21,374 nt of DNA from positions 1 through 21,374 of IMG/VR virus record IMGVR_UViG_3300005265_000045, one strand, 5' to 3'. The notes beneath the pieces were generated by a model. It saw only the letters and a program-made list of their open reading frames with translations, ran no database searches and was not told where the DNA came from. Both the position numbers and the translations under genes were made by a program. Origin of the DNA: a virus. Below are positions 716 to 21,374 of this stretch, piece by piece. The first letter of the stretch is position 1. Each line of letters starts with the position of its first letter.

Positions 716-1153
716 ATGAAACGCAAGATAGAATTTACGCAAAAACAAATTGATCAGGTAGAAGCTTTAGCATCTGTTTTAACTGTTGAGCAGATATCGG
801 AATATTTTGGCATTTCATACGTAACTTTTGGACGATTACGTAAAGATAATCCTGAAATTGATAGGGCATATAAGAAAGGCAAGGCTAAAGCTATCTATGA
901 TGTGGCAAGCGGTTTGCTGGAAACAGCCAAAAAAGGCAATTTAACAGCTCGTATGTTTTATCTGAAAACGCAGGCGGGATGGCGTGAAGCAAATCGTACG
1001 GAACTCACCGGTCCCGATGGAAAGCCTATTCAAACTGATACGAACAGCCAAAATAAGGTTACTATTGATTTATCTTCTAAAACTACAGATGAATTATTGG
1101 CTATTCATGCAGGATTGAAGATATTAAAGGATACAGCGTGTGACGCAGACTAA
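716..1153 (+). CDS. terS: Terminase small subunit
   Basis: This 145-residue protein recognises the packaging site and loads the large terminase on phage DNA. An N-terminal helix-turn-helix is visible at about residues 18-50, around VEQISEYFGISYVTFGRLRK. It is followed by a helical stretch with DPEIDRAY-like spacing (NPEIDRAYKKGKAKA) and then RMFYLKTQAGWRE near residues 80-92, a combination common in small terminases. The C-terminus is polar and may contact the large subunit. Its end overlaps the large terminase start by 14 bases, so the two are probably translationally coupled. The upstream ribosome binding site is weak. The position directly before the large terminase makes the call strong. 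Confidence 0.9.
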   Translation: MKRKIEFTQKQIDQVEALASVLTVEQISEYFGISYVTFGRLRKDNPEIDRAYKKGKAKAIYDVASGLLETAKKGNLTARMFYLKTQAGWREANRTELTGPDGKPIQTDTNSQNKVTIDLSSKTTDELLAIHAGLKILKDTACDAD

Positions 1154-3938
1154 GACAGTATCTATTTCAGAAACTTCTCTTTCTATGGCAACTTCTTTAT
1201 ATAATAAAGTTGCTGCAATTCTTTGCAAGCGTTCTTTATATTTCTTTATGCAAGAATTTTGGAATGAAATTTCTAATGATACATTAAAAACAAACTGGCA
1301 TATTAAACTTTTTTGTGATGAGTTACAAGCCATAGCAGAAAGAGTGGCACAAAACAAACCAAAAAAATATGATCTGATAACAAATGTTCCACCTGGTACA
1401 ACTAAAACGACATTATTTATAATAATGTTTCCGGTATGGTGCTGGATTAACTGGTATTGGATGAGGTTTATAACAGCATCCTATTCATCAGCATTATCAT
1501 TAGAATCAGCGGAATATAGTAGGGATTTAATTCGTTCAGTAAAGTTTACTGACTTTTTCCCTGAGTTAGCAATCAAGCAGGATAAAGATACCAAATCCAA
1601 TTTTAAGATTATAAAAAAGTTGCCGGATAAAACCATAAAAATTGGGGGAAATAGATATAGTACGTCAGTAGGTGGTACATTAACAGGATTTCATGGGCAT
1701 ATATTATTGGTAGATGACCCTCTTGATCCGAACAGGGCGGTAAGTGAAGTGGAATTGTCGAATGCCAACAGATGGATTGATCAAACATTATCTACCAGAA
1801 AGATTGATAAGGAAATTACTCCTACAATTATGATTATGCAACGACTTCATGAATGTTTACATCCAAATACAAGGATATGGACACAGGATGGATTTACTGA
1901 AGTAATAAATATAAAACGAGGTGAAAAAGTTTTAACAAGCGGTGGATGGCAAAATGTATTGGCAATAAATAACAGACCTTATAAAGGTAAAATAATAGGA
2001 TTAAAAGTTAGTGGACATCCTGAAATTCCGTGGCTAACAACAAATCATAGAGTATATACAGCAAAAGGATGGATTAATGCTGGGGATTTAACTAAAAGAG
2101 ATGTATTGTTATTTCCTTTACCAAATAAAAAAAAGAAGACTGCTGTTGAAATAAAAAAGTTGTGGCCTGCTTTACCATATAAAGAAAAAGCGCCAAAAAT
2201 AATAAAACAAACATTTAATGTGAATGAAAAGCGAGTTCCTTGTACAGAATTAAAAAAACTTGTCGATGGTGGATGGACAAGTAAACAAATGGCTGATTAT
2301 TTTGGTTTTGCAACAAGACAAATGATAGATTTGTACATAGCAAAATACAAAATTGTAAGAAAAAATGCACTAACTGTAAAATCTGATTTGCTGCTTGATT
2401 CTGATTTTTGGAGATTAGTAGGGTATTGGGTAGCTGAAGGTAGTTTGGTGAGGGGAAGAAGAAAAATAAATAATTCTGTTTGTTTTTCTTTTGGAAATAA
2501 AGATGGAGAATTAATAGCAGATGCTGTAAATATATTAAAAAAATATGGATTTAACCCAACAATAACAGATAATAAAGATAATTCATTTACTCTTTTTTGT
2601 GCATCTTATCAACTTGTTTTATTTTTTGAAATGTTTGGTGTAGGTGCCAAGAATAAAAAAATACCGGAATGGATGTCGTCGTTGCCAATTGAGTATATTC
2701 AACAGTTTATTAAAGGATATTGGCTTAGGGATGGTTGTATCGCTCGTAATTATGCACGGTTTGTATCAATATCGGTTGAATTACTTACAGGAATACAAAG
2801 GTTGCTGTTACAAATTGGTATTGTTTCATCTATTTATAAGTATAAAATTCCCATTAAATTTTGTATTATAAAAACAGGATCTGGTAAAGAAAGAAGAATA
2901 AAAGGAAAACATAATCCTTATGAGTTAAGAGTAGCAAGAAAAGATATAAATGCTAAACTTTGGAAAATAGGATTTGCAGACATAGCTTATACTGAAAAAA
3001 CGGTAAATAAAATTAAAGATGGTTATCTTTATGTTAAAATATTGGATATTTTGGAAAAAGACTATATCGGAGATGTTTATGACATTACAACGCCAACACA
3101 TGATTTTTTAGTAGGGTTAACTATGCTGCATAATAGCGATCCATCGGGGCATCTTCTTGCGAAACAGAAAGCTAATCTTAAACATATTAGCTTGCCGGGT
3201 GAAATTCGTAATTTTAGGGAAAGTTTAAAACCAGCTGATCTTGCAAAAAATTATGTAAATGATCTTTTGGACCCTGAACGTATGAGTTGGGAAGTTCTGA
3301 AAGATATGGAAGCCGATTTGGGGCAGTATGGCTATGCTGGGCAGGTTGGACAATCTCCTACACCTCCTAAAGGTGGTATGTTTAAAACAGCTATGATTTC
3401 CATAGTGGAAAGCCTTCCAGATTCTGCCAATCTTACAGGAATGGTAAGAGCATGGGATAAAGCCGGAACTTTTGGCGGAGGAGCATACACCGTAGGTTTG
3501 AAATTATATCGATATTCTTCTGGAAAATATATTATTGTGGATGTCATTCGTGGACAATGGAGTAGTGAAGAGCGTGAAAATATTATTCGTACTGCGGCGG
3601 AAACTGATGGAAGAGATGTTTCTATTGTTATTGAACAAGAACCAGGATCTGGGGGGAAAGAATCAGCGGAAGCTACTATAAAAAATTTGGCGGGGTTTGT
3701 TGTTCATGTGGATAATCCTACTGGGAACAAAGTGTTTCGTGCCGATCCGGTAAGTGTACAGGTTAACAATGGGAATGTCAGTATGTTACGAGGGGCTTGG
3801 AATTTTACATTTATTGAAGAATTACGGCATTTTCCATTTAGCACGTATAAAGATCAAACAGATGCTTTTTCTATGGCTTTTCATTATTTGAATGGAAAAA
3901 AACGTGCAGGAATGTTGTTTGGCAGAAAGAATTGTTAA
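1140..3938 (+). CDS. terL: Terminase large subunit with in-frame intein
   Basis: The 932-codon precursor contains a DNA-packaging ATPase and nuclease plus an intein at residues 239-665. Removing the intein gives about 505 residues, a normal large terminase length. The ATPase half has a Walker A variant PPGTTKT (residues 84-90), a Walker B HILLVDDP (187-194), and the motif MQRLHE|SDPSGHLL, split exactly by the intein. The C-terminal nuclease half shows acidic residues D773 (AWDKAGT), E832/E834 (IEQEPGSGGK) and D905/D908 (DQTDAFSMAF), typical of the RNase H-like terminase nuclease. The start is a GTG inside the end of the small terminase gene, with AAAGGA about 10 bases upstream. An ATG at 1188 is an alternative start. 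The product works as a ring on the portal and drives DNA into the prohead. Function depends on correct splicing. Confidence 0.97.
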   Translation: MTQTKTVSISETSLSMATSLYNKVAAILCKRSLYFFMQEFWNEISNDTLKTNWHIKLFCDELQAIAERVAQNKPKKYDLITNVPPGTTKTTLFIIMFPVWCWINWYWMRFITASYSSALSLESAEYSRDLIRSVKFTDFFPELAIKQDKDTKSNFKIIKKLPDKTIKIGGNRYSTSVGGTLTGFHGHILLVDDPLDPNRAVSEVELSNANRWIDQTLSTRKIDKEITPTIMIMQRLHECLHPNTRIWTQDGFTEVINIKRGEKVLTSGGWQNVLAINNRPYKGKIIGLKVSGHPEIPWLTTNHRVYTAKGWINAGDLTKRDVLLFPLPNKKKKTAVEIKKLWPALPYKEKAPKIIKQTFNVNEKRVPCTELKKLVDGGWTSKQMADYFGFATRQMIDLYIAKYKIVRKNALTVKSDLLLDSDFWRLVGYWVAEGSLVRGRRKINNSVCFSFGNKDGELIADAVNILKKYGFNPTITDNKDNSFTLFCASYQLVLFFEMFGVGAKNKKIPEWMSSLPIEYIQQFIKGYWLRDGCIARNYARFVSISVELLTGIQRLLLQIGIVSSIYKYKIPIKFCIIKTGSGKERRIKGKHNPYELRVARKDINAKLWKIGFADIAYTEKTVNKIKDGYLYVKILDILEKDYIGDVYDITTPTHDFLVGLTMLHNSDPSGHLLAKQKANLKHISLPGEIRNFRESLKPADLAKNYVNDLLDPERMSWEVLKDMEADLGQYGYAGQVGQSPTPPKGGMFKTAMISIVESLPDSANLTGMVRAWDKAGTFGGGAYTVGLKLYRYSSGKYIIVDVIRGQWSSEERENIIRTAAETDGRDVSIVIEQEPGSGGKESAEATIKNLAGFVVHVDNPTGNKVFRADPVSVQVNNGNVSMLRGAWNFTFIEELRHFPFSTYKDQTDAFSMAFHYLNGKKRAGMLFGRKNC
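1854..3134 (+). mobile_element. Intein with LAGLIDADG homing endonuclease in the large terminase
   Basis: The intein spans residues C239 to N665 of the precursor, 427 residues. Block A begins CLHPNTRIWTQDGF. Block B is TTNH at 300-303. The C-terminal block reads VYDITTPTHDFLVG and ends in the His-Asn pair H664-N665, with Ser666 as the +1 nucleophile. Two LAGLIDADG helices are visible, LVGYWVAEGS (426-435, acidic E433) and FIKGYWLRDG (523-532, acidic D531), about 97 residues apart as in single-chain homing endonucleases. The stretch SVELLTGIQRLLLQIGI after the second motif also fits this fold. All catalytic splicing residues are present, so it looks active. The insertion point is the conserved RLHE-D-SGHLL motif of the ATPase, the sort of invariant site homing elements target. 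The coding sequence is visibly richer in A and in ATA/AAA codons than the flanking exteins. Confidence 0.95.
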
Positions 3939-13026: not shown

Positions 13027-13346
13027 GCTGTTTTCATCCGGATTACCTGTTAAATGAATTGACATCGGAACAGGTTAGTGAATGGATGGCTTACGACAGT
13101 ATTGATCCTGTTGGAAAACAAAGGGATGATTATGGCTGGGCGATGATATGTTCTGTAATATATAATTTGGTGCTTGATATATATTCAGTGAAAGGATCTC
13201 ATCCAAAACGAACTACTCCTATTGATTTCATGCCTGATTGGGGAAATACAAGGGAAAAAGCGCAGAAGATACAGACGGTAGATGAGCAGAAATCTATTTT
13301 GTCAGGTTTAGCAAGAAGACGTAAGAAGGAAAAAAAACATGGCTGA
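12975..13346 (+). CDS. Tail assembly chaperone, frameshift extension (gpGT-like)
   Basis: This reading frame lies -1 to the short chaperone and supplies its C-terminal extension of about 123 residues. Read from the slip point it gives ERQFYFRLCRELGCFHPDYL, then LTSEQVSEWMAYDSIDPVG, the recognisable T-part of gpG/gpT-type chaperones. The conserved FRLCRELG section lies upstream of the first possible independent start (TTG 13059), so a separate gene would lose it. The fused product would be about 247 residues. The very basic C-terminus (GLARRRKKEKKHG) may contact the acidic or coiled-coil tape measure. The end overlaps the tape measure start by eight bases. Confidence 0.85.
   Translation, partial: LRSRPERQFYFRLCRELGCFHPDYLLNELTSEQVSEWMAYDSIDPVGKQRDDYGWAMICSVIYNLVLDIYSVKGSHPKRTTPIDFMPDWGNTREKAQKIQTVDEQKSILSGLARRRKKEKKHG
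12978..13002 (+). promoter_or_regulatory. Frameshift-stimulating stem-loop
   Basis: GCCGC (12982-12986) pairs with GCGGC (12992-12996) over a five-base loop, and AGAA (12978-12981) can extend the stem with TTCT (12999-13002) across a two-base bulge. It starts about six bases after the slippery heptamer, the usual spacing. A second small hairpin, TCGAC-TCT-GTCGA (13007-13019), follows. Confidence 0.7.
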
Positions 13347-15822
13347 TTTGGGGTCTCTGATAGTTTCGATGGGCGCTGATCTTGATCCATTAAAACAGGG
13401 CATGCATCAGGCGGAAGCTCAATTTCGTAAGTTCCAATCAAGCGGTGTAGCTGCATTAAATAGAGTTAATAAGGCTGTTTTTAGTTTACAAACTGTCATA
13501 AGTGGTTTAGCTATTGGAATGATAGCTAAAGATATTACCAAGACCAAAAACGAATATGTAAAGTACCAAAAAACGCTTGAAATTCTTGAAGGTTCTCACG
13601 ATAAGGCGAACAAAAAATGGCAGGAAATGCTCCAGTTTGCTGAGGAAACACCTTTCAAGATAAAACAGGTTATGGAATCTTACAAAACATTGAAAGCTTT
13701 TGGTCTAGAACCTACTGTCGAAACCATGCGAACTTTGGGTGATGTTGCTGCTGCATTAGGCGGAGCAGATGTTATGGGAAGAGTAGCGTTGGTACTGGGT
13801 CAAATTAAGACGCAGGGATTTATAACGGCAGAGGATATGAACCAGCTTGCTAATGCCGGTATCAATGCTGGTAAGGTGATGGAAGACGCGTTTGGTGCTG
13901 CACGCGATGAAGTAGCGCTATTAAAAAATCAAGGTGTTACGGCGAATATGATAATTAGCGCTTTGATGAAAAACATGCAGGAAAAGTTCGGCGGTCAGAT
14001 GGCGAAAATGAACAAGGAACTGTCAGGCCAATGGGAAATGTTGATTTCCATATGGGAACGGTTCGAAGTCAAGATTATGGACAGTGGTTTATATAATTAT
14101 ATCCGTAATTTTCTTACAGTGATTAATGAAAAAATAATTGAATTGCGGAAAGAAGGTAAACTTGATGAATGGGCGAAAAAAATATCGGATAATATCATTA
14201 ATACATTTGAAACAATGGCAATGGGTATTGCAGGATTTTGGGATTTTGCAGAACCGTTGTTAAAAGATATAAAAAAAGGTATGACGGATATATGGGATTG
14301 GTATAAAAAACTTCCTGGATGGATAAAAAAAACTGGTTTGATATTAGCGCTATTTGGAGGACGCTCTACAAAAATAGGTCTTGGATTTCTTGCCGTAACG
14401 TCTTCAAAAATGGAAAAACTGAAAAAACAGATTGATGAATTTCAAAAAGAAGGTGGTAAAGGCGGTTTTTTGGCTATGCTTAAATGGCAAAAAGAAAAAA
14501 AAAACAGAAACATTCTAAGCTTTAAAATAGCACCTGCCAAAGCAACGCCTATTGAAATAAATGAAAAAGAATTATCAAAAACGCAAAAAAGATTACAGAA
14601 ATTTTTCAAAGAGCTTCGTTCTATACAACATTCAGCAGCAGAAACAAAAATAAACCCGACAGTAGAAACAGAACAGGGAAATAAAAAAGAAATTTCAAAA
14701 ACTTATGATGAAGAAATTAGCCGACAAAAAAAGCATATCCAGCTCATGAAAGAAGGAAAAGCCTTAACAGAATCTTTATTAACGCCTCAGGAACAATATA
14801 CTAAAACAATAGAGCATTTAAATACTTTGCTGGATGCAGGTGCTATTTCACAAGAAACATATAACAGAGCGCTGAATAAAGCAGAAGAAAGTATAAAAGG
14901 CACTACTAATGGATACGAAAAATTAATTTCAGGAATAGATTTTGAAAAATCCTTACTTGGAAAAAACAAAACAGTTCAGCGTGCTATGACTATGGCAAAG
15001 GAAAACAATATAAAAATAGGATCAGAACAGTATAATCAACTTCTTAAAAAAATATCTGCATATGATACCGAAGCAGATCGTTTGGCAGATGAAAAAAAAG
15101 CGCAGGAAGAGCGCTTGCAAATCGTTCAGGATTTTAATGCACAATATGAAAACTTGGGAAAGAATCGATTTGAAATAGAAAGAGAAAATTTGGAAAAACA
15201 GGTAGCATTATGGGAAAAAGCCGGTATTGATAAAGAGCGGATAGCAAGAATGACATCGAAAAAGCTTGATCAAATTAATTTGGAAGAAACAAAATCTGTT
15301 ATGAGCATGTATGCTGATATGGCCGGAGGTGTTGCAGGTGTATTTCAGCAAATCGCACAGGCAGGCGGAAAACAGAGCAAAGAAGCTTTTATAATGTATA
15401 AGGCTTTTGCAGTGGCGCAGGCCGGAATTCAAGCTACTTCAGCTATTTTAAATACTTTAGCAAGTCCGCTTCTGACTCCGCCAATGAATCAGATAATGGC
15501 GGGTGTGATAGGTGCCATGGCTGCCGCAAAAGTGGCTGCGATAGTATCTGCACAACCTCCTTCTTATGATGAAGGCGGAATTTCTAAAGCGAAAGGATTT
15601 TATCAGACAGGAAATATAGCTGAAGCTCATATTCCATTAAAAAAAGGCAGGATCCCTGTAGAACTAAAGAAACAGGAAGAAAAAACACCCGTTGATGTTA
15701 CCATATTGAACGCTTTTGATCCGGCCATGATAGACGAGTATATGTATTCTTCACAAGGGCAATCTGCAATATTGAATGTAATAGGAAACCATTCACAAAC
15801 TGTTAGACGTGTATTAAGATGA
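13339..15822 (+). CDS. Tape measure protein
   Basis: An 827-residue protein that sets tail length and is threaded inside the tube before ejection. The N-terminal half (about residues 1-245) has the tape-measure domain pattern: MGADLDPLKQGM helices, a hydrophobic VISGLAIGMIAKDI, then ETPFKIKQVMESYKTLKAFG and TQGFITAEDMNQLANAGINA. A hydrophobic stretch at 332-353 and charged coiled-coil regions follow. Near residues 655-735 is an Ala/Gly-rich hydrophobic region, then PPSYDEGGISKAKGFYQTG and a typical C-terminus. AAGGA lies eight bases before the ATG. It overlaps the chaperone gene before it and the distal tail gene after it. It is shorter than in many siphophages, which suggests a tail of ordinary length. 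Confidence 0.95.
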   Translation: MADLGSLIVSMGADLDPLKQGMHQAEAQFRKFQSSGVAALNRVNKAVFSLQTVISGLAIGMIAKDITKTKNEYVKYQKTLEILEGSHDKANKKWQEMLQFAEETPFKIKQVMESYKTLKAFGLEPTVETMRTLGDVAAALGGADVMGRVALVLGQIKTQGFITAEDMNQLANAGINAGKVMEDAFGAARDEVALLKNQGVTANMIISALMKNMQEKFGGQMAKMNKELSGQWEMLISIWERFEVKIMDSGLYNYIRNFLTVINEKIIELRKEGKLDEWAKKISDNIINTFETMAMGIAGFWDFAEPLLKDIKKGMTDIWDWYKKLPGWIKKTGLILALFGGRSTKIGLGFLAVTSSKMEKLKKQIDEFQKEGGKGGFLAMLKWQKEKKNRNILSFKIAPAKATPIEINEKELSKTQKRLQKFFKELRSIQHSAAETKINPTVETEQGNKKEISKTYDEEISRQKKHIQLMKEGKALTESLLTPQEQYTKTIEHLNTLLDAGAISQETYNRALNKAEESIKGTTNGYEKLISGIDFEKSLLGKNKTVQRAMTMAKENNIKIGSEQYNQLLKKISAYDTEADRLADEKKAQEERLQIVQDFNAQYENLGKNRFEIERENLEKQVALWEKAGIDKERIARMTSKKLDQINLEETKSVMSMYADMAGGVAGVFQQIAQAGGKQSKEAFIMYKAFAVAQAGIQATSAILNTLASPLLTPPMNQIMAGVIGAMAAAKVAAIVSAQPPSYDEGGISKAKGFYQTGNIAEAHIPLKKGRIPVELKKQEEKTPVDVTILNAFDPAMIDEYMYSSQGQSAILNVIGNHSQTVRRVLR

Positions 15823-16988
15823 ATGTGTATTTTACACCAAGCATACAAAACCAGTCATTGGAACATATTTGGAAAACAAATATTCAAGAAAATATACAAG
15901 GTATGGAAAAACGAACAGCCCTGTTTACATGGCCTCGTGTACGTTTGGAAAGCACTGTTCAACTGATTACAAAAAAAGAGCAGCGAATTTTCAGAACATA
16001 TACTGAAAATATACATAATATCTGGTATTTTCCAATAATTTTCAATAGAACAATATTGACAGAAATTGCAGATGCAGGGCAAAAAATAATCATGGTTGAA
16101 GAGACCTTATACCGTCATTTTTATAATGGAAGATTATGTATTTTAATAAATCCTGCAGATAGAGAAATATATGAAATTGTAGAAATATCCTCTGTAGATT
16201 CTTCTACTAAAATAACAGCTAAGGATAATTTAACAAATACATGGCCTGCAGGAACTTTAATTTATCCATTTTATCCAACACACATTAAACCTGCACAATC
16301 ACGGACAATTAAACAATTGAATTTATTAGAAACTTCTATTGTTGCAGAAGAAAGTTTTGAAACAGTTCATTCTTTTTCATACACGCTTCCAGGTATAGAT
16401 GTTGATATATTTCCTGAATATAATTCTTTACATTCGTTTTTGATAAGACCATTGCCACCAATAGAAGAAGAATTTCAACATCCTTATTCTTTATTGAATT
16501 TTTTAGGAAAACAAACTGTTTTTAGTAATTATGAAAACACAAGAAATACTATGCGTAGAAATTTCCTGATTACTACAAGAAAAAACATACAAGCTGTTCT
16601 TGACTTTTTTGATGCACAAAAAGGGCGTTTAGGTGCATTTTATACACCTACATGGTTGAAAGATATCATAATTACTGAAGGTTTCTCTGCTGATGCTACC
16701 ATATTAACCGTACAGGAATTATATATGACGGAAAGTGAAATCACAGGAAAACATCTATACATTCAATTTCCTGATAAAACTTATGTTTGCAGAGAGATTA
16801 TAGGTGCGCCTTCTCAAACATCCATAATAATAGATTCTGCTATAGGAACGGCGGTCGATACTGAAAATTTGAATGATATGTTATGTAGTTTTTTCCCTGA
16901 AGTTCGTTTTAATCAGGATAATATAAAATTAATATATCTATATAAATCAAGCCTGGCTAAAATTGATCTAAATTTCAAAACATTATGA
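15819..16988 (+). CDS. Distal tail/tail-tip assembly protein
   Basis: A 389-residue protein directly after the tape measure, where distal tail proteins are encoded. I see no enzymatic motif. The C-terminal half contains NFLITTRKNIQAVLDFFDAQ and KGRLGAFYTPTWLKD (about residues 248-282). This resembles the strand and helix pattern F-x-A-R/Q-K-G-R-x-x-x-F-x-x-P in tail tip proteins of DUF2460 or lambda gpM-like type. The N-terminal half (PRVRLESTVQLITKKEQRIF near 39-58) is beta-rich. It overlaps both neighbours as ATGA, so it is part of the same translation unit as the hub and NlpC/P60 genes. The exact family is uncertain. Confidence 0.65.
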   Translation: MNVYFTPSIQNQSLEHIWKTNIQENIQGMEKRTALFTWPRVRLESTVQLITKKEQRIFRTYTENIHNIWYFPIIFNRTILTEIADAGQKIIMVEETLYRHFYNGRLCILINPADREIYEIVEISSVDSSTKITAKDNLTNTWPAGTLIYPFYPTHIKPAQSRTIKQLNLLETSIVAEESFETVHSFSYTLPGIDVDIFPEYNSLHSFLIRPLPPIEEEFQHPYSLLNFLGKQTVFSNYENTRNTMRRNFLITTRKNIQAVLDFFDAQKGRLGAFYTPTWLKDIIITEGFSADATILTVQELYMTESEITGKHLYIQFPDKTYVCREIIGAPSQTSIIIDSAIGTAVDTENLNDMLCSFFPEVRFNQDNIKLIYLYKSSLAKIDLNFKTL

Positions 16989-17803
16989 AAAATGTAAGTG
17001 AAACTTATATAACAAAAGAGGTAGCTTCTCAAAGAAGGCCGGCTGAATTATATCATATCTGGCGGGATGGTGGAGAACATTGGTATTATACCAGCGGTGA
17101 TACTACGATAACATATGATGGGAATGACTATCTGCCGGCGACTTTAAAACGGGCATCTGCAAAGTATGACTCACAATTAGAAGTTACAACAATGGAAATT
17201 ACATTGGGATATTTGGAAGATCCTGTAACTGAATTTATAGCAAATAATCCTATAGAAATTCTTTGGATAGATATCAGGAAATTATTCCGGGACCAAGACC
17301 CTTTTGAAACCAGTGTTATTTTTTTGGGACAAATCAAAAAGGTATCTTTTCAGGGAAATTCAGCCAAGGTTGTATGCGTAGGTTTTGAACATTTTTTGCA
17401 AATGCCTGTTCCTGTTTTTCGATACCAAATAACCTGTAATCATAAATTATTCGATGATAGCTGTGGAATAGATAAGGCGACTTATAAAATAACTACAAAT
17501 GTAACTTTAAGTGCGGATAAAACAAAATTAACAAGTTCTGATTTTGAATCATATGATGATGGATATTTCATATATGGTTCTGTGGAACATGGATCAGAAT
17601 ACAGGATGATAACTGATCATGTCGGCGATACCATTACAATAGCGTATAAAATGAATGAATTTGATGAATACACTGATTCAATAGATGTTTATCCGGGTTG
17701 CGACAGACAAATAGAAACATGCAGAGATAAATATGATAATGTCATTAATTTTTTAGGATTTCCATTCATTCCGCAAGAAAATCCTGCAACAAGGATGCCG
17801 TGA
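16985..17803 (+). CDS. Tail hub protein, BR0599/DUF2163 type, likely iron-sulfur binding
   Basis: A 272-residue hub protein. It starts with beta strands (ELYHIWRDGGEHWYYTSGDT) typical of the family. The middle has QITCNHKLFDDSCGI and the C-terminus has YPGCDRQIETCRDKYDNVIN followed by FLGFPFIPQENPA, the signature of Phage_BR0599-type proteins in gene transfer agents and phages. Four cysteines, C151-x8-C160 and C239-x6-C246, have the same spacing within each pair as the cysteines I recall for the [4Fe-4S] site in lambda gpL, so a cluster is likely. The protein would join the tail tube or distal ring to the tip protein. It overlaps both neighbours and directly precedes the NlpC/P60 gene, as in known modules. 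Confidence 0.85.
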   Translation: MKNVSETYITKEVASQRRPAELYHIWRDGGEHWYYTSGDTTITYDGNDYLPATLKRASAKYDSQLEVTTMEITLGYLEDPVTEFIANNPIEILWIDIRKLFRDQDPFETSVIFLGQIKKVSFQGNSAKVVCVGFEHFLQMPVPVFRYQITCNHKLFDDSCGIDKATYKITTNVTLSADKTKLTSSDFESYDDGYFIYGSVEHGSEYRMITDHVGDTITIAYKMNEFDEYTDSIDVYPGCDRQIETCRDKYDNVINFLGFPFIPQENPATRMP

Positions 17804-18252
17804 TGTATTATTTTGAAGATAAAGACAAACAGCAGAAATTAAAAAAGATTTTAGACAGTTGGCTTTCTACTCCTTTCCGGCATCATACAGGGGTAAAAGG
17901 TGCGGGATGTGATTGCATTCATTTTGTAATACGGGTCTATGAAGAAATGGGCATTCTTAAATATGAACGTAATTTTGTTCCTGATTATCCTAAAGATTGG
18001 CATCTTCATAATACACGTGAGTTATTGGCTGAAGGAATTGAAAGAAAAGTTAAAGTACAAAAAATAAGTTTGGACGCTTTAAAAAACGGAGATATAATTT
18101 TATCTCATTATGGAAAAGCTGCTTCTCACGCTTCTATTTATTTCGATGGATATGTATATCATTCCGTAACTAATATAGGAGTGTGTAAAATTAATTTCAA
18201 AGACAGGTTTTTCAGACGACAAATGCGATTTGCATACAGGATATTAAAATGA
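17803..18252 (+). CDS. NlpC/P60-family tail-tip peptidase (lambda gpK-like)
   Basis: About 149 residues. The NlpC/P60 signature is visible as KGAGCDCIHFVIRVYEEMG with catalytic Cys38 (after Asp), followed by GDIILSHYG, SHASIYF with His109 and YVYHS with His120, completing a Cys-His-His set. The family cleaves peptidoglycan peptides; in tails it helps the tip cross the cell wall or is used in tail assembly. ATG 17803 is chosen because AAGGA lies seven bases upstream; GTG 17800 would add one residue and overlaps the hub stop as GTGA. Genes of this type almost always follow the hub gene, as here. Confidence 0.9.
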   Translation: MYYFEDKDKQQKLKKILDSWLSTPFRHHTGVKGAGCDCIHFVIRVYEEMGILKYERNFVPDYPKDWHLHNTRELLAEGIERKVKVQKISLDALKNGDIILSHYGKAASHASIYFDGYVYHSVTNIGVCKINFKDRFFRRQMRFAYRILK

Positions 18253-20390
18253 GTTTAGGCGGAATAGCAGGCGGAATCATGGGCGGAATCGCTGGATTTC
18301 TGATTGGCGGTCCCATCGGACTTCTATATGGAGTAGGCGTTGGATTCAGCATTGGTATGATGATAGACCCTATGACTCCTGATATGGCTCCTCCAGGAAC
18401 GCCGTTACAAGAATTACAAGTTACTACAAATAAAATAGGACTTCCTATTCCTGATTTGGTAGGAACTGGAAAATTGTCCGGTAATCTTTTATGTTATGGA
18501 AAAGAAAGAGTAGAAGAAGTAGTACAGGAAACCGACAGTGGAAAAGGTAGCGGCGGCAGTACTGAACAAATAACAGGATATAAATATTATGCTTCATGGG
18601 CATTGGGTATATGTCTTGGTGAAATAGATGCTTTATTAAGCGTATATCGAAATGATGAAATAATATGGTCGGGTACTTTAGAACGTCCTGAATCAGGTGG
18701 ACAGGAATCTTTATTGTTAAATGAAATGGGTATTATGACTTTCTACTTCGGAACGAATGATCAGTCCGCCAATTCCAAAGTAGGAGCGTTGATAGGAGAT
18801 AACACACTAAATTCACCAAATCGTGGATTATGCTGGGCTTTTTTTGATGATTGCTGCATAGGCGGATATAACAGGATACCATCCATGAAATTTGTAGTCA
18901 GAAAAATACCTGAACCGCCTTTTGCGCAAACAGAAAAAGTAATTCAGGAATATGATTATAATCCTGTCTGCGCTATCTGGTATACATTATGTGAATTAAC
19001 CGGCTTGCCTTCCACATGGCTGTATTTTCCTGATTTTATAAGTACTGCTTATGCTTTGTTTGCTGAAAAAATGGGAATGAGTCTTATTTTTGACCGGCAA
19101 AATAGTGCGTTATCTTATCTGGAAACTATTAATAGGCATATAGACAGTATAATCCGATATGGTTCAGATGGAAAATTTCATCCAAAATTAATCAGAGATG
19201 ATTACAATATAGAAAATCTTCCATTAGTGGATGAGACTGTATTGCTGGAAGCGCCTACTTTTTCAAGAAAAAGCTGGATAGATACAATTAATGAAGTAAA
19301 AGTCCAATATACTGAAATAATTGCTAACAGAACGTTAGGATATCCTTTATGGACTACTGGATTGAATGATTATGGACAGTTAGGGTTAGGCGATGCGGAT
19401 GACAGAGATCATTTTACACAGGTTGAAGTGAGCAATACATGGAAAAAAGTATCTTGCGGAGATCATCATACGATTGCTATAGACCCGGCTGATAATGGTT
19501 TATGGGGAGCTGGCGATGATTCATACGGGCAATTGGGACATGGGTGTTATACACATTATCTTGAATTTGAGTCTTTAGAACGTTTTTCTCCTTATGGATG
19601 GAAACGAAATAACTGGTATGATGTATCGTGCGGTTGGCGAAACTCTGTGATTATAAAATCAGATGGTACATTATGGGATACTGTTGGCTGCGGTTTTGTG
19701 CAGCGTGGGACAGATGTATGGATATCTGTTTCTTATGGACAAGGTTACGGAAAAGTATTCTTTATGGCTATTAAATTGAATGGCACATTATGGGGTAAGG
19801 GTGATAATGACAATGGTCAGTTAGGGTTAGGTGATGAAGATGACAGGGATGAGCTTACCCAGGTTGGTACTGATGATACATGGCAGATTATTGCCTGTGG
19901 TGGCAAGCATACCGCTGCTATAAAATCAGATGGTACATTATGGACTACCGGATATAATGGCAATGGTCAGTTAGGATTAGGCGATAGAATTAGCAGGAAC
20001 GAATTTACTCAAGTAAATTCTGATGAATGGTTAGCTGTAGCTTGTGGATATTATCATACTTTGGCTATCAAAGCGGATAAAACTTTATGGGCTACCGGAT
20101 ATAATAATCATGGTCAGTTAGGATTAGGAGATACAAATCATAGAGAAGAATTTACTCAAGTCGGTACTGATGATACGTGGAAAATTATCGCTTGTGGATG
20201 TTATCACACTATGGCTATTAAAACGGATAAAACTCTATGGGGTGCTGGTAATAATGACTATGGTCAGTTAGGGTTACGTTATCCAGATAACAGGCTTGAA
20301 TTTACTCAAATTGGCAGTGGTGGTATATCTTTTGAAGATGTAGCTTGCGGCGCTTATCATACAGCAGCTTTAGGAAACGTTAACAGCTAA
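18249..20390 (+). CDS. Tail-tip protein N-part fused to a seven-repeat RCC1 propeller
   Basis: A 713-residue protein. Residues 1-40 are a glycine-rich hydrophobic segment typical of tip proteins. Residues 41-360 carry the tail-tip domain: LPIPDLVGTGKLSGNLLCYG (65-84), YYASWALGICLGEIDALLSV (113-132), NRIPSMKFVVRK (208-219) and KSWIDTINEVKVQYTEII (341-358). Then, without a linker, seven RCC1-type repeats follow at 367-709, with motifs such as LWTTGYNGNGQLGLGD, FTQV and VACGYYHTLAIK. Repeat 3 (475-513) is degenerate. Seven repeats are the number in a closed RCC1 propeller. A TAA ends the frame four residues after the last repeat. The missing tip sequence continues beyond the stop in the same frame. 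The start overlaps the NlpC/P60 stop as ATGA, with AGGA seven bases upstream. A receptor-binding role for the propeller is inference. Confidence 0.85.
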   Translation: MSLGGIAGGIMGGIAGFLIGGPIGLLYGVGVGFSIGMMIDPMTPDMAPPGTPLQELQVTTNKIGLPIPDLVGTGKLSGNLLCYGKERVEEVVQETDSGKGSGGSTEQITGYKYYASWALGICLGEIDALLSVYRNDEIIWSGTLERPESGGQESLLLNEMGIMTFYFGTNDQSANSKVGALIGDNTLNSPNRGLCWAFFDDCCIGGYNRIPSMKFVVRKIPEPPFAQTEKVIQEYDYNPVCAIWYTLCELTGLPSTWLYFPDFISTAYALFAEKMGMSLIFDRQNSALSYLETINRHIDSIIRYGSDGKFHPKLIRDDYNIENLPLVDETVLLEAPTFSRKSWIDTINEVKVQYTEIIANRTLGYPLWTTGLNDYGQLGLGDADDRDHFTQVEVSNTWKKVSCGDHHTIAIDPADNGLWGAGDDSYGQLGHGCYTHYLEFESLERFSPYGWKRNNWYDVSCGWRNSVIIKSDGTLWDTVGCGFVQRGTDVWISVSYGQGYGKVFFMAIKLNGTLWGKGDNDNGQLGLGDEDDRDELTQVGTDDTWQIIACGGKHTAAIKSDGTLWTTGYNGNGQLGLGDRISRNEFTQVNSDEWLAVACGYYHTLAIKADKTLWATGYNNHGQLGLGDTNHREEFTQVGTDDTWKIIACGCYHTMAIKTDKTLWGAGNNDYGQLGLRYPDNRLEFTQIGSGGISFEDVACGAYHTAALGNVNS
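19347..20375 (+). repeat. Seven tandem RCC1-type repeats (about 140-150 bases each)
   Basis: At protein level the repeats begin near residues 367, 418, 475, 514, 565, 613 and 663. At DNA level the last four share GGTCAGTTAGG at intervals of 150, 147 and 150 bases (about 19815, 19965, 20112 and 20262), and longer near-identical stretches such as the one around ACTGATGATACATGG also recur. The clear nucleotide similarity implies recent internal duplication or recombination between blades. Confidence 0.9.
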
Positions 20391-20411
20391 AAAAAAAGGC
20401 ACTATTCATAT

Positions 20412-21374
20412 ATGTCTATAGATTTCAGAGATTCAATGGCAGTTCCAAATGCTGTAGATATAGGAAATATATCAATTCAGGGCAGGGTTGTATCTAAAAC
20501 TATTAAACTGGCTTCTTTTACAACCAATGCGAATGCCGTCAGAGCCGGTAGACAGGCACTTTTAAAAGAATCATATCCGTTTGCGTTCATCAGTTTTACT
20601 GCTAATAGAGACGTATTCCGATATGAAGTAGGAGACTGTTTTAAATTTTCATATGCGCAATATGGAATTTCTAATATGATTTGCAGGGTTTTGCAAATAG
20701 AAGAAGCTGAACTGGAATCTGAAATCATAACTATTCATGCCATGGAGGATATATTCAGTGTAAATAATCCTGTAACTGAATATAAGGACCCTGAAGATCA
20801 TACTATAGACCCTATAGAGTACGATATAGAACCATTAGCATATCAAAATGTAATAGAGTCTACATATATAACAAATGGGAATACCATAGGTATTATTCCT
20901 ATAGCAGTAAGATCTTCTGATAATCAGTTAGGCTATGAATTATTTATGAGTTCTGATGGAGGAAATTCTTATAATTCATTAGGTACTTTTGGAAATTTCA
21001 GCTGCAAGGGGATACTTGCAAAGGAATATTCCAAGGATACGTATCAAATAGATGATGATACGATATTGGAAGTAAGGTTTACCGATTATAGTAATATAGA
21101 TCAATTTGAAACAGTTACACGTCAGGAAATGCTGGGTGCTTCCAATCTGGTTTTAATAGACAATGAAATAATGACGATTCAGAATATAGACCCTCTGGAA
21201 GGAACATGGTATAATTTATCTGGTATATATCGGGGCCGATTTGATACGCAAAAAGAAGATCATGCTATGTATGCTGACGTTATTCTCACCAATGGCAATA
21301 ATATACAAGTTGTTACAGATGCTGACATAGTATTGGGAACAAGTAGAAAATTTAAATTTGTTCCGTATAATTCT
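20412..21374 (+). CDS. Tail-tip protein C-part, partial at the window end
   Basis: The frame is open from the base after the TAA at 20388-20390 to the end of the window, and the first ATG is at 20412, giving at least 321 codons. The product begins MSIDFRDSMAVPNAVDIGNI and continues ISIQGRVVSKTIKLASF, NAVRAGRQALLKESYPFAFI, YEVGDCFKFSYAQYGISNMI, and LVLIDNEIMTIQNI, YNLSGIYRGRFDTQKEDHAM. This order is the second half of GTA gp15-like or Phage-tail_3-type tip proteins, normally continuous with the region ending KVQYTEII in the upstream frame. Translation may restart here: a weak AAGG lies 12 bases upstream and the previous stop is 21 bases away. It is in the same frame as the upstream gene, with only one stop between them. 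The 3' end lies outside the window. Confidence 0.8.
   Translation, partial: MSIDFRDSMAVPNAVDIGNISIQGRVVSKTIKLASFTTNANAVRAGRQALLKESYPFAFISFTANRDVFRYEVGDCFKFSYAQYGISNMICRVLQIEEAELESEIITIHAMEDIFSVNNPVTEYKDPEDHTIDPIEYDIEPLAYQNVIESTYITNGNTIGIIPIAVRSSDNQLGYELFMSSDGGNSYNSLGTFGNFSCKGILAKEYSKDTYQIDDDTILEVRFTDYSNIDQFETVTRQEMLGASNLVLIDNEIMTIQNIDPLEGTWYNLSGIYRGRFDTQKEDHAMYADVILTNGNNIQVVTDADIVLGTSRKFKFVPYNS

Follow-up and report, generated by a model that had tools for sequence, protein, structure and literature searches.

The last two open reading frames (ORFs) of the window, the whole 21,374-nucleotide stretch of viral DNA that was analysed, encode a central tail hub that carries an RCC1-type beta-propeller in one loop of its core. 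In the lineage to which this phage belongs, that loop is a hypervariable slot. We consider it likely that the slot is a socket for exchangeable cell-surface-binding modules in a split, presumably trimeric siphophage hub, whose relatives are the hubs of Chi and JBD30 and the RcGTA megatron.

A tail hub gene split beside a beta-propeller

ORF1 (18249-20390, plus strand) encodes a protein of 713 amino acids, in which a megatron/gpJ-like hub N-half (residues 1-361) is followed by seven RCC1-type repeats up to the stop. The N-half (18249..19331) ends at KVQYTEIIANR, corresponds to residues 2-283 of the Chi tail-tip protein 8vjh and was modelled by AlphaFold2 with pLDDT mostly >90. The slot occupant forms the C-terminus of ORF1 (19323..20387, plus strand), and the frame closes with a TAA stop (20388..20390). 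The second ORF begins 21 nt on with its own ATG at 20412, in the same frame as ORF1 and preceded by only a weak SD. It encodes the hub C-half (20412..21374, plus strand; Rcc01698_C PF23666, 2.8e-9; 8vjh residues 298-432), which is incomplete here because the ORF reaches past the window end and is truncated by it. The original prediction had placed the insertion in the middle of a tail-tip protein. The position is correct, but the insertion is in a split gene and not inside one continuous protein: the stop gives two ORFs, and the module is at the C-terminus of the first. No RNA family was matched in the window, and thus no known intron.

Between 13339 and 21374 the genes follow the order tape measure, distal tail, hub, NlpC/P60 and megatron, which is the order of g11-g15 in RcGTA (PMC7296036). 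All are on the plus strand. The tape measure gene (13339..15822; PF20155, 7.2e-25) is followed by a DUF2460-like tail gene (15819..16988; PF09343 below cut-off, phrog_1082 4.5e-41), presumably in the distal-tail position of RcGTA g12, and by a companion hub gene in the g13 position (16985..17803; BR0599 / phiJL001 Gp84 N-terminal, PF09931 and PF09356). Directly upstream of the hub, in the g14 position, lies an NlpC/P60 peptidase gene (17800..18252; PF00877, 1.8e-7). Long serine-only tracts end tail genes adjoining the hub in contigs L091 (319-3606) and L066 (2-2536 and 9316-9954). Elsewhere in the window, an intein bearing a LAGLIDADG endonuclease (PF14890, PF14528) interrupts the gene for the terminase large subunit (1140-3938).

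The flanks form one conserved tail hub

Residues 52-359 of ORF1 align with positions 30-352 of the phrog_1101 "tail protein" profile (4e-55), and residues 15-321 of the second ORF align with positions 362-657 (2.3e-47). Because the two matches are colinear, the halves together make up a single protein family and no part of it is missing between them, as had been proposed from the sequence of the window, and the slot sits between profile positions 352 and 362. When the halves are combined in a joint profile, its matches to two uninterrupted solved proteins, the Chi tail tip 8vjh (E=1.8e-71) and the JBD30 hub 8rk3 (E=8.4e-51), cross the junction without a break. Each of these proteins is one chain in which the slot position is a short loop, near residues 284-297 in 8vjh. 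The flanks are thus not pieces of unrelated proteins.

Structure prediction supports a hub fold for the gene pair of the window. The hub was modelled as one artificial fused chain, with the TAA read as Gln. This model matches solved hubs with Z scores of 15-27, among them JBD30 (Z 27), Chi (Z 26.5) and the RcGTA megatron (Z 24.2, rmsd 2.8 over 366 residues), and also those of T5 and lambda. Among cultured phages, 606 records match the uninterrupted joint query, and each of the 60 sampled from these at regular intervals covers the junction without interruption at the slot. There is no close cultured relative, and scanning genome contigs with the N-half profile gave no prophage relative.

The insert is a predicted seven-bladed propeller

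ORF1 matches RCC1 (PF00415, E=1.8e-51) and the RCC1-like domain (PF25390, E=3.9e-63), and a 1.1 kb insert of this kind is far beyond chance. The seven repeats lie on the plus strand at 19347..19499, 19500..19670, 19671..19787, 19788..19937, 19938..20084, 20085..20234 and 20235..20387; the third is degenerate and weak in Pfam, and is predicted as four strands. The AlphaFold2 model of the module has 28 strands, 7 x 4, with a pLDDT of 93.3 and a pTM of 0.92. It superposes on RCC1, HERC2, RPGR and UVR8 with Z 45-49 over ~322-340 residues. The module was modelled alone, with an alignment of 56 viral RCC1 rows, because AlphaFold2 gave a poor module in the fused chain, where the alignment was without depth. 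The original count of seven repeats, their boundaries and the placement of a complete propeller exactly between the flanks are right, and prediction supports a whole propeller closed by its seven blades. A single-protein scan found no close relatives of the propeller. Ran exchange or chromatin binding is not expected in a phage, and the RCC1 fold alone reveals no function.

Unrelated modules occupy the same slot

Scans of viral contigs yielded ~80 related loci. Nearly all that reach both halves have extra sequence at exactly the slot point of the window, and ~50 distinct related environmental phages carry modules of 0.5-1.7 kb or more there. Across 59 backbones differing by >2%, 10 are uninterrupted, 11 hold an insert in one chain, 34 have the gene split there, and a further 4 additionally carry docking-segment cassettes as separate ORFs. 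The 58 non-redundant modules form 28 groups between which no similarity was detected, and most of these groups had no match in Pfam. RCC1 modules fill the slot in the window, in L039, twice in L091 and in L204, a 50 kb contig where seven RCC1 repeats are followed by a stop, an SD and the C-half. RCC1 has therefore reached the slot in several lineages. A kelch module is found in L007/L096 (1.2e-17) and a CBM96 module in L023 only (5.7e-13), while the L099 module has a weak BNR/Vps10-like match and the L066 module a weak LamG-like match below cut-off.

Close relatives have other modules or none, and so the RCC1 repeats are not a fixed, ancient part of the fold at this point. The propeller had also been thought to be a modular unit acquired as a whole. 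It does behave as an exchangeable unit; the idea of a singular acquisition does not hold, since relatives carry unrelated modules at the same point and RCC1 recurs in L039, L091 and L204. A separate scan for RCC1 repeats, in which L204 came up, returned 114 viral loci with at least three repeats, the window included. Six viral contigs without hub flanks (L126, L170, L119, L185, L201 and L235) contain ORFs of ~380 aa that are separate but arranged in tandem, and each of these ORFs has exactly seven RCC1 repeats.

Exchange on near-identical backbones

The pairs L009/L095, L011/L095, L033/L044 and L024/L026 have hub halves that are 91-97% identical and modules that are unrelated. Between L009 and L095, DNA identity of 92.7% extends 1 nt beyond the final codon of the N-half, and identity of 92.2% sets in again 2 nt ahead of the ATG of the C-half. 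In the other exchange pairs, DNA similarity stops at most 12 nt from the slot edges. The L033 module resembles that of L026 (60%), and the L044 module resembles that of L022 (26%). Modules cross between hub backbones in this way. A 58-bp stretch near the right edge of the slot is common to L026 (2141-2198) and L024 (3622-3678), whose modules differ, and resembles a scar left by an exchange.

With the chosen outgroup, the tree of hub halves has most of the uninterrupted forms at its base, and the rest of the tree consists of interrupted ones; the uninterrupted, inserted and split states need at least ten changes. The exception is L102, whose slot is uninterrupted, yet which is placed inside the interrupted clade. 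The hub N-half of L102 is interrupted by ~900 bp elsewhere (2354-3270), and its usual slot is without an insert. In both hub halves dN/dS is 0.03-0.10, indicating purifying selection. Sequence comparison thus shows the slot position, the module diversity, the exchange, the split of the gene and the selection on both halves.

The hub as two probable polypeptides

At split junctions the C-half ATG is mostly 0-31 nt after the stop and sometimes overlaps it. In some loci, for example L010 and L011, the gap between the N-half ORF and the C-half is longer and contains further ORFs. One possibility is that the stop is read through, producing one long hub chain with an inserted propeller, like that of the continuous relatives. 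The two ORFs of the window do share a frame and lie only 21 nt apart, and L012, L058 and L063 keep the insert in one continuous ORF. However, a C-half in frame with ORF1 is expected by chance in a third of cases, and over the split junctions the C-half occupies frames 0, 1 and 2 relative to the first ORF about equally (8/6/5). An SD of at least 4 nt is present at 22 of 35 C-half starts compared with 20% in shuffles, often together with a separate ATG, including overlapping stop-starts. The mechanism, whether frameshift or readthrough, would need to vary phage by phage. Because the junctions lack a frame bias and the C-halves often have an SD and a start codon of their own, we find readthrough very unlikely.

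Another possibility is that the gene has decayed, the insertion having broken it and left its halves to drift. That the gene is interrupted here and intact in cultured relatives fits such a history. Both halves, however, are open in dozens of independent contigs at the low dN/dS given above, and arrays of hub segments keep exactly one C-half copy (10/10 contigs tested), which makes decay scarcely credible. The readthrough and pseudogene readings were both rejected on the frame data and dN/dS. Most simply, the split hub is two polypeptides that must fold together, and we infer a two-chain assembly. Near position 1055 of L018, an in-frame TAA lies within the hub N-half (GGKKKK*ITGYE); it is either a real break or a sequencing error.

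Tandem N-halves beside a single C-half

Several contigs encode more than one N-half. L041 and L099 have three in tandem (58-61% identical) with different modules and one C-half (L041 683-6929), L083 has two and L101 has at least two. In L101 (1-4913), the tandem N-half-plus-module ORF is accompanied by g13/g14-like genes between copies, with 88% DNA identity in part of the N-half, possibly a duplication of the tail-tip block. In L066 (4937-9326), L091 (6286-10170) and L082 (5807-8975), modules follow a docking segment of 48 residues (M..KFKLxLLR...TNDVKVQY) that has an ATG of its own, and each contig has several such ORFs. The short docking segment of L091 had no match in cultured phages.

Since some contigs combine a lone C-half with more than one N-half or docking cassette, each with a different module, a dedicated switching system, such as a diversity-generating retroelement or an invertible shufflon, could be driving the variation. 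We regard this as highly improbable. A search of 19 contigs, possibly fragments, turned up no reverse transcriptase, and none of the hub segments in ~110 loci is on the opposite strand. Repeated hub segments are 42-76% identical and not near-identical, and the variation consists of whole-module replacement, not point hypermutation. More tentatively, the split may make the hub a true plug-in socket, in which the single C-half could accept each of the N-half-plus-module subunits encoded by the same genome (three in L041/L099, two in L083, and the short docking cassettes of L066 and L091). If true, one phage could build mosaic tips with different modules on the three hub subunits, and so recognise hosts multivalently or alternatively with no need for DNA inversion or retroelements.

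Proposed role of the modules

We propose that slot modules, here the RCC1 propeller, would project from the tail tip, which is presumably a trimer, and attach to the surface of the host, with glycans as the most likely target. For the majority of the clade, including the window, the hub would be made as an N-half plus module and a C-half, which are expected to fold together non-covalently. The module could then be replaced as a C-terminal tail, with no reading frame to keep through the hub. There would be three modules per tip, displayed at the surface and presumably binding host glycans or proteins, and we infer a receptor-binding role for the propeller, as originally suggested.

Position, turnover and the few named folds argue for a role shared by the modules. 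Recognition is the most likely one, given the precedents of phage adhesion sites that have propellers and of Tal, Dit and megatron proteins into which binding modules are inserted (PMC4901313, PMC7291167, PMC10276861). The main rival is an enzymatic role, in which the modules would mainly degrade or modify glycans, or else act as structural spacers, and would not be receptor binders. The kelch module has a further match to NANM, the model for N-acetylneuraminate epimerase, one module is BNR/Vps10-like, and the megatrons of RcGTA and R4C bear a mannanase-like peripheral domain (PMC10276861). However, RCC1, CBM96 and LamG-like modules have binding folds for which no common active site is known, and rapid replacement by unrelated folds suits recognition better than one enzymatic step. 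We therefore find it unlikely that the modules are mainly enzymes or spacers, and favor recognition.

The determinants of phage host range are usually sought in the tips of tail fibres. In this clade, what varies sits at one fixed point of the hub core, and its boundaries are sharp in sequence. With ~28 unrelated sequence groups catalogued at one equivalent position, the slot offers a direct route to host-recognition modules of uncultured phages. It also poses a testable structural question: how the core of a hub copes with a broken chain next to a large domain, and whether mixed tips arise from the tandem alternatives.

Comparison with known systems

Insertion of binding modules into tail-core proteins is already known, as are phage beta-propellers, so the propeller itself is not new. 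No paper describing this slot was found in the literature searched, which was covered in part. As far as shown within that literature, the new elements are a fixed hypervariable hub-core slot with ~28 unrelated module groups, a gene split at that slot, sharply bounded module swaps between backbones that are nearly identical, and tandem alternatives that share one C-half.

The best matches in sequence and fold are the Chi tail-tip protein 8vjh and the JBD30 hub gp53 8rk3, each directly homologous to the two halves. Unlike the window hub, each is a single chain with an uninterrupted slot. In JBD30, separate receptor-binding protein trimers attach at the hub C-terminus (PMC11445458). A hub trimer at the tail tip is known from the papers on RcGTA, R4C and JBD30.

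The RcGTA megatron (Rcc01698, g15) has the same core fold and the same gene order of hub, NlpC/P60 peptidase and megatron. Both this protein and the megatron of roseophage R4C contain an inserted peripheral mannanase-like domain, and R4C also has a nested carbohydrate-binding domain (PMC7296036, PMC10276861). Their insertion follows the adhesin-like domain, at about residue 230 of the window protein, whereas the window slot is at 361, which by domain lengths would be inside the RcGTA central domain. Moreover, these megatrons are one chain and have not been reported as a variable slot, while the window hub is split.

In siphophages of lactic acid bacteria, evolved Dit and evolved Tal carry carbohydrate-binding modules in loops of tail-core proteins, including the gp27-like domain of Tal (PMC7291167). 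The window likewise has an extra module in a loop of a conserved tail-core domain. Evolved Tal and Dit, however, belong to Gram-positive phages, have mostly carbohydrate-binding modules of one fold and are single chains, whereas the window clade has many unrelated module groups, a gene split at the slot and tandem alternatives. Propellers are also found at the adhesion sites of other phages, in the phi11 RBP, PRD1 P2, phiKZ gp131C and the K1F endosialidase (PMC4901313), but these are of other families and have other attachment points, outside the hub core.

A single polypeptide is usual in solved hub members, and this is not so in the window (stop at 20388-20390, ATG at 20412) or in most of its relatives. 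Hub domains are also divided between two proteins in lambda and RcGTA, elsewhere in the fold (PMC10721106). In lambda, gpJ and gpL build a hub from two polypeptides that share one domain, and gpJ has insertions, FNIII-A and a beta-sandwich at 483-569 (PMC10721106). The lambda chain break, however, falls in HDI and the HDII-insertion, whereas that of the window hub lies directly beside a variable module.
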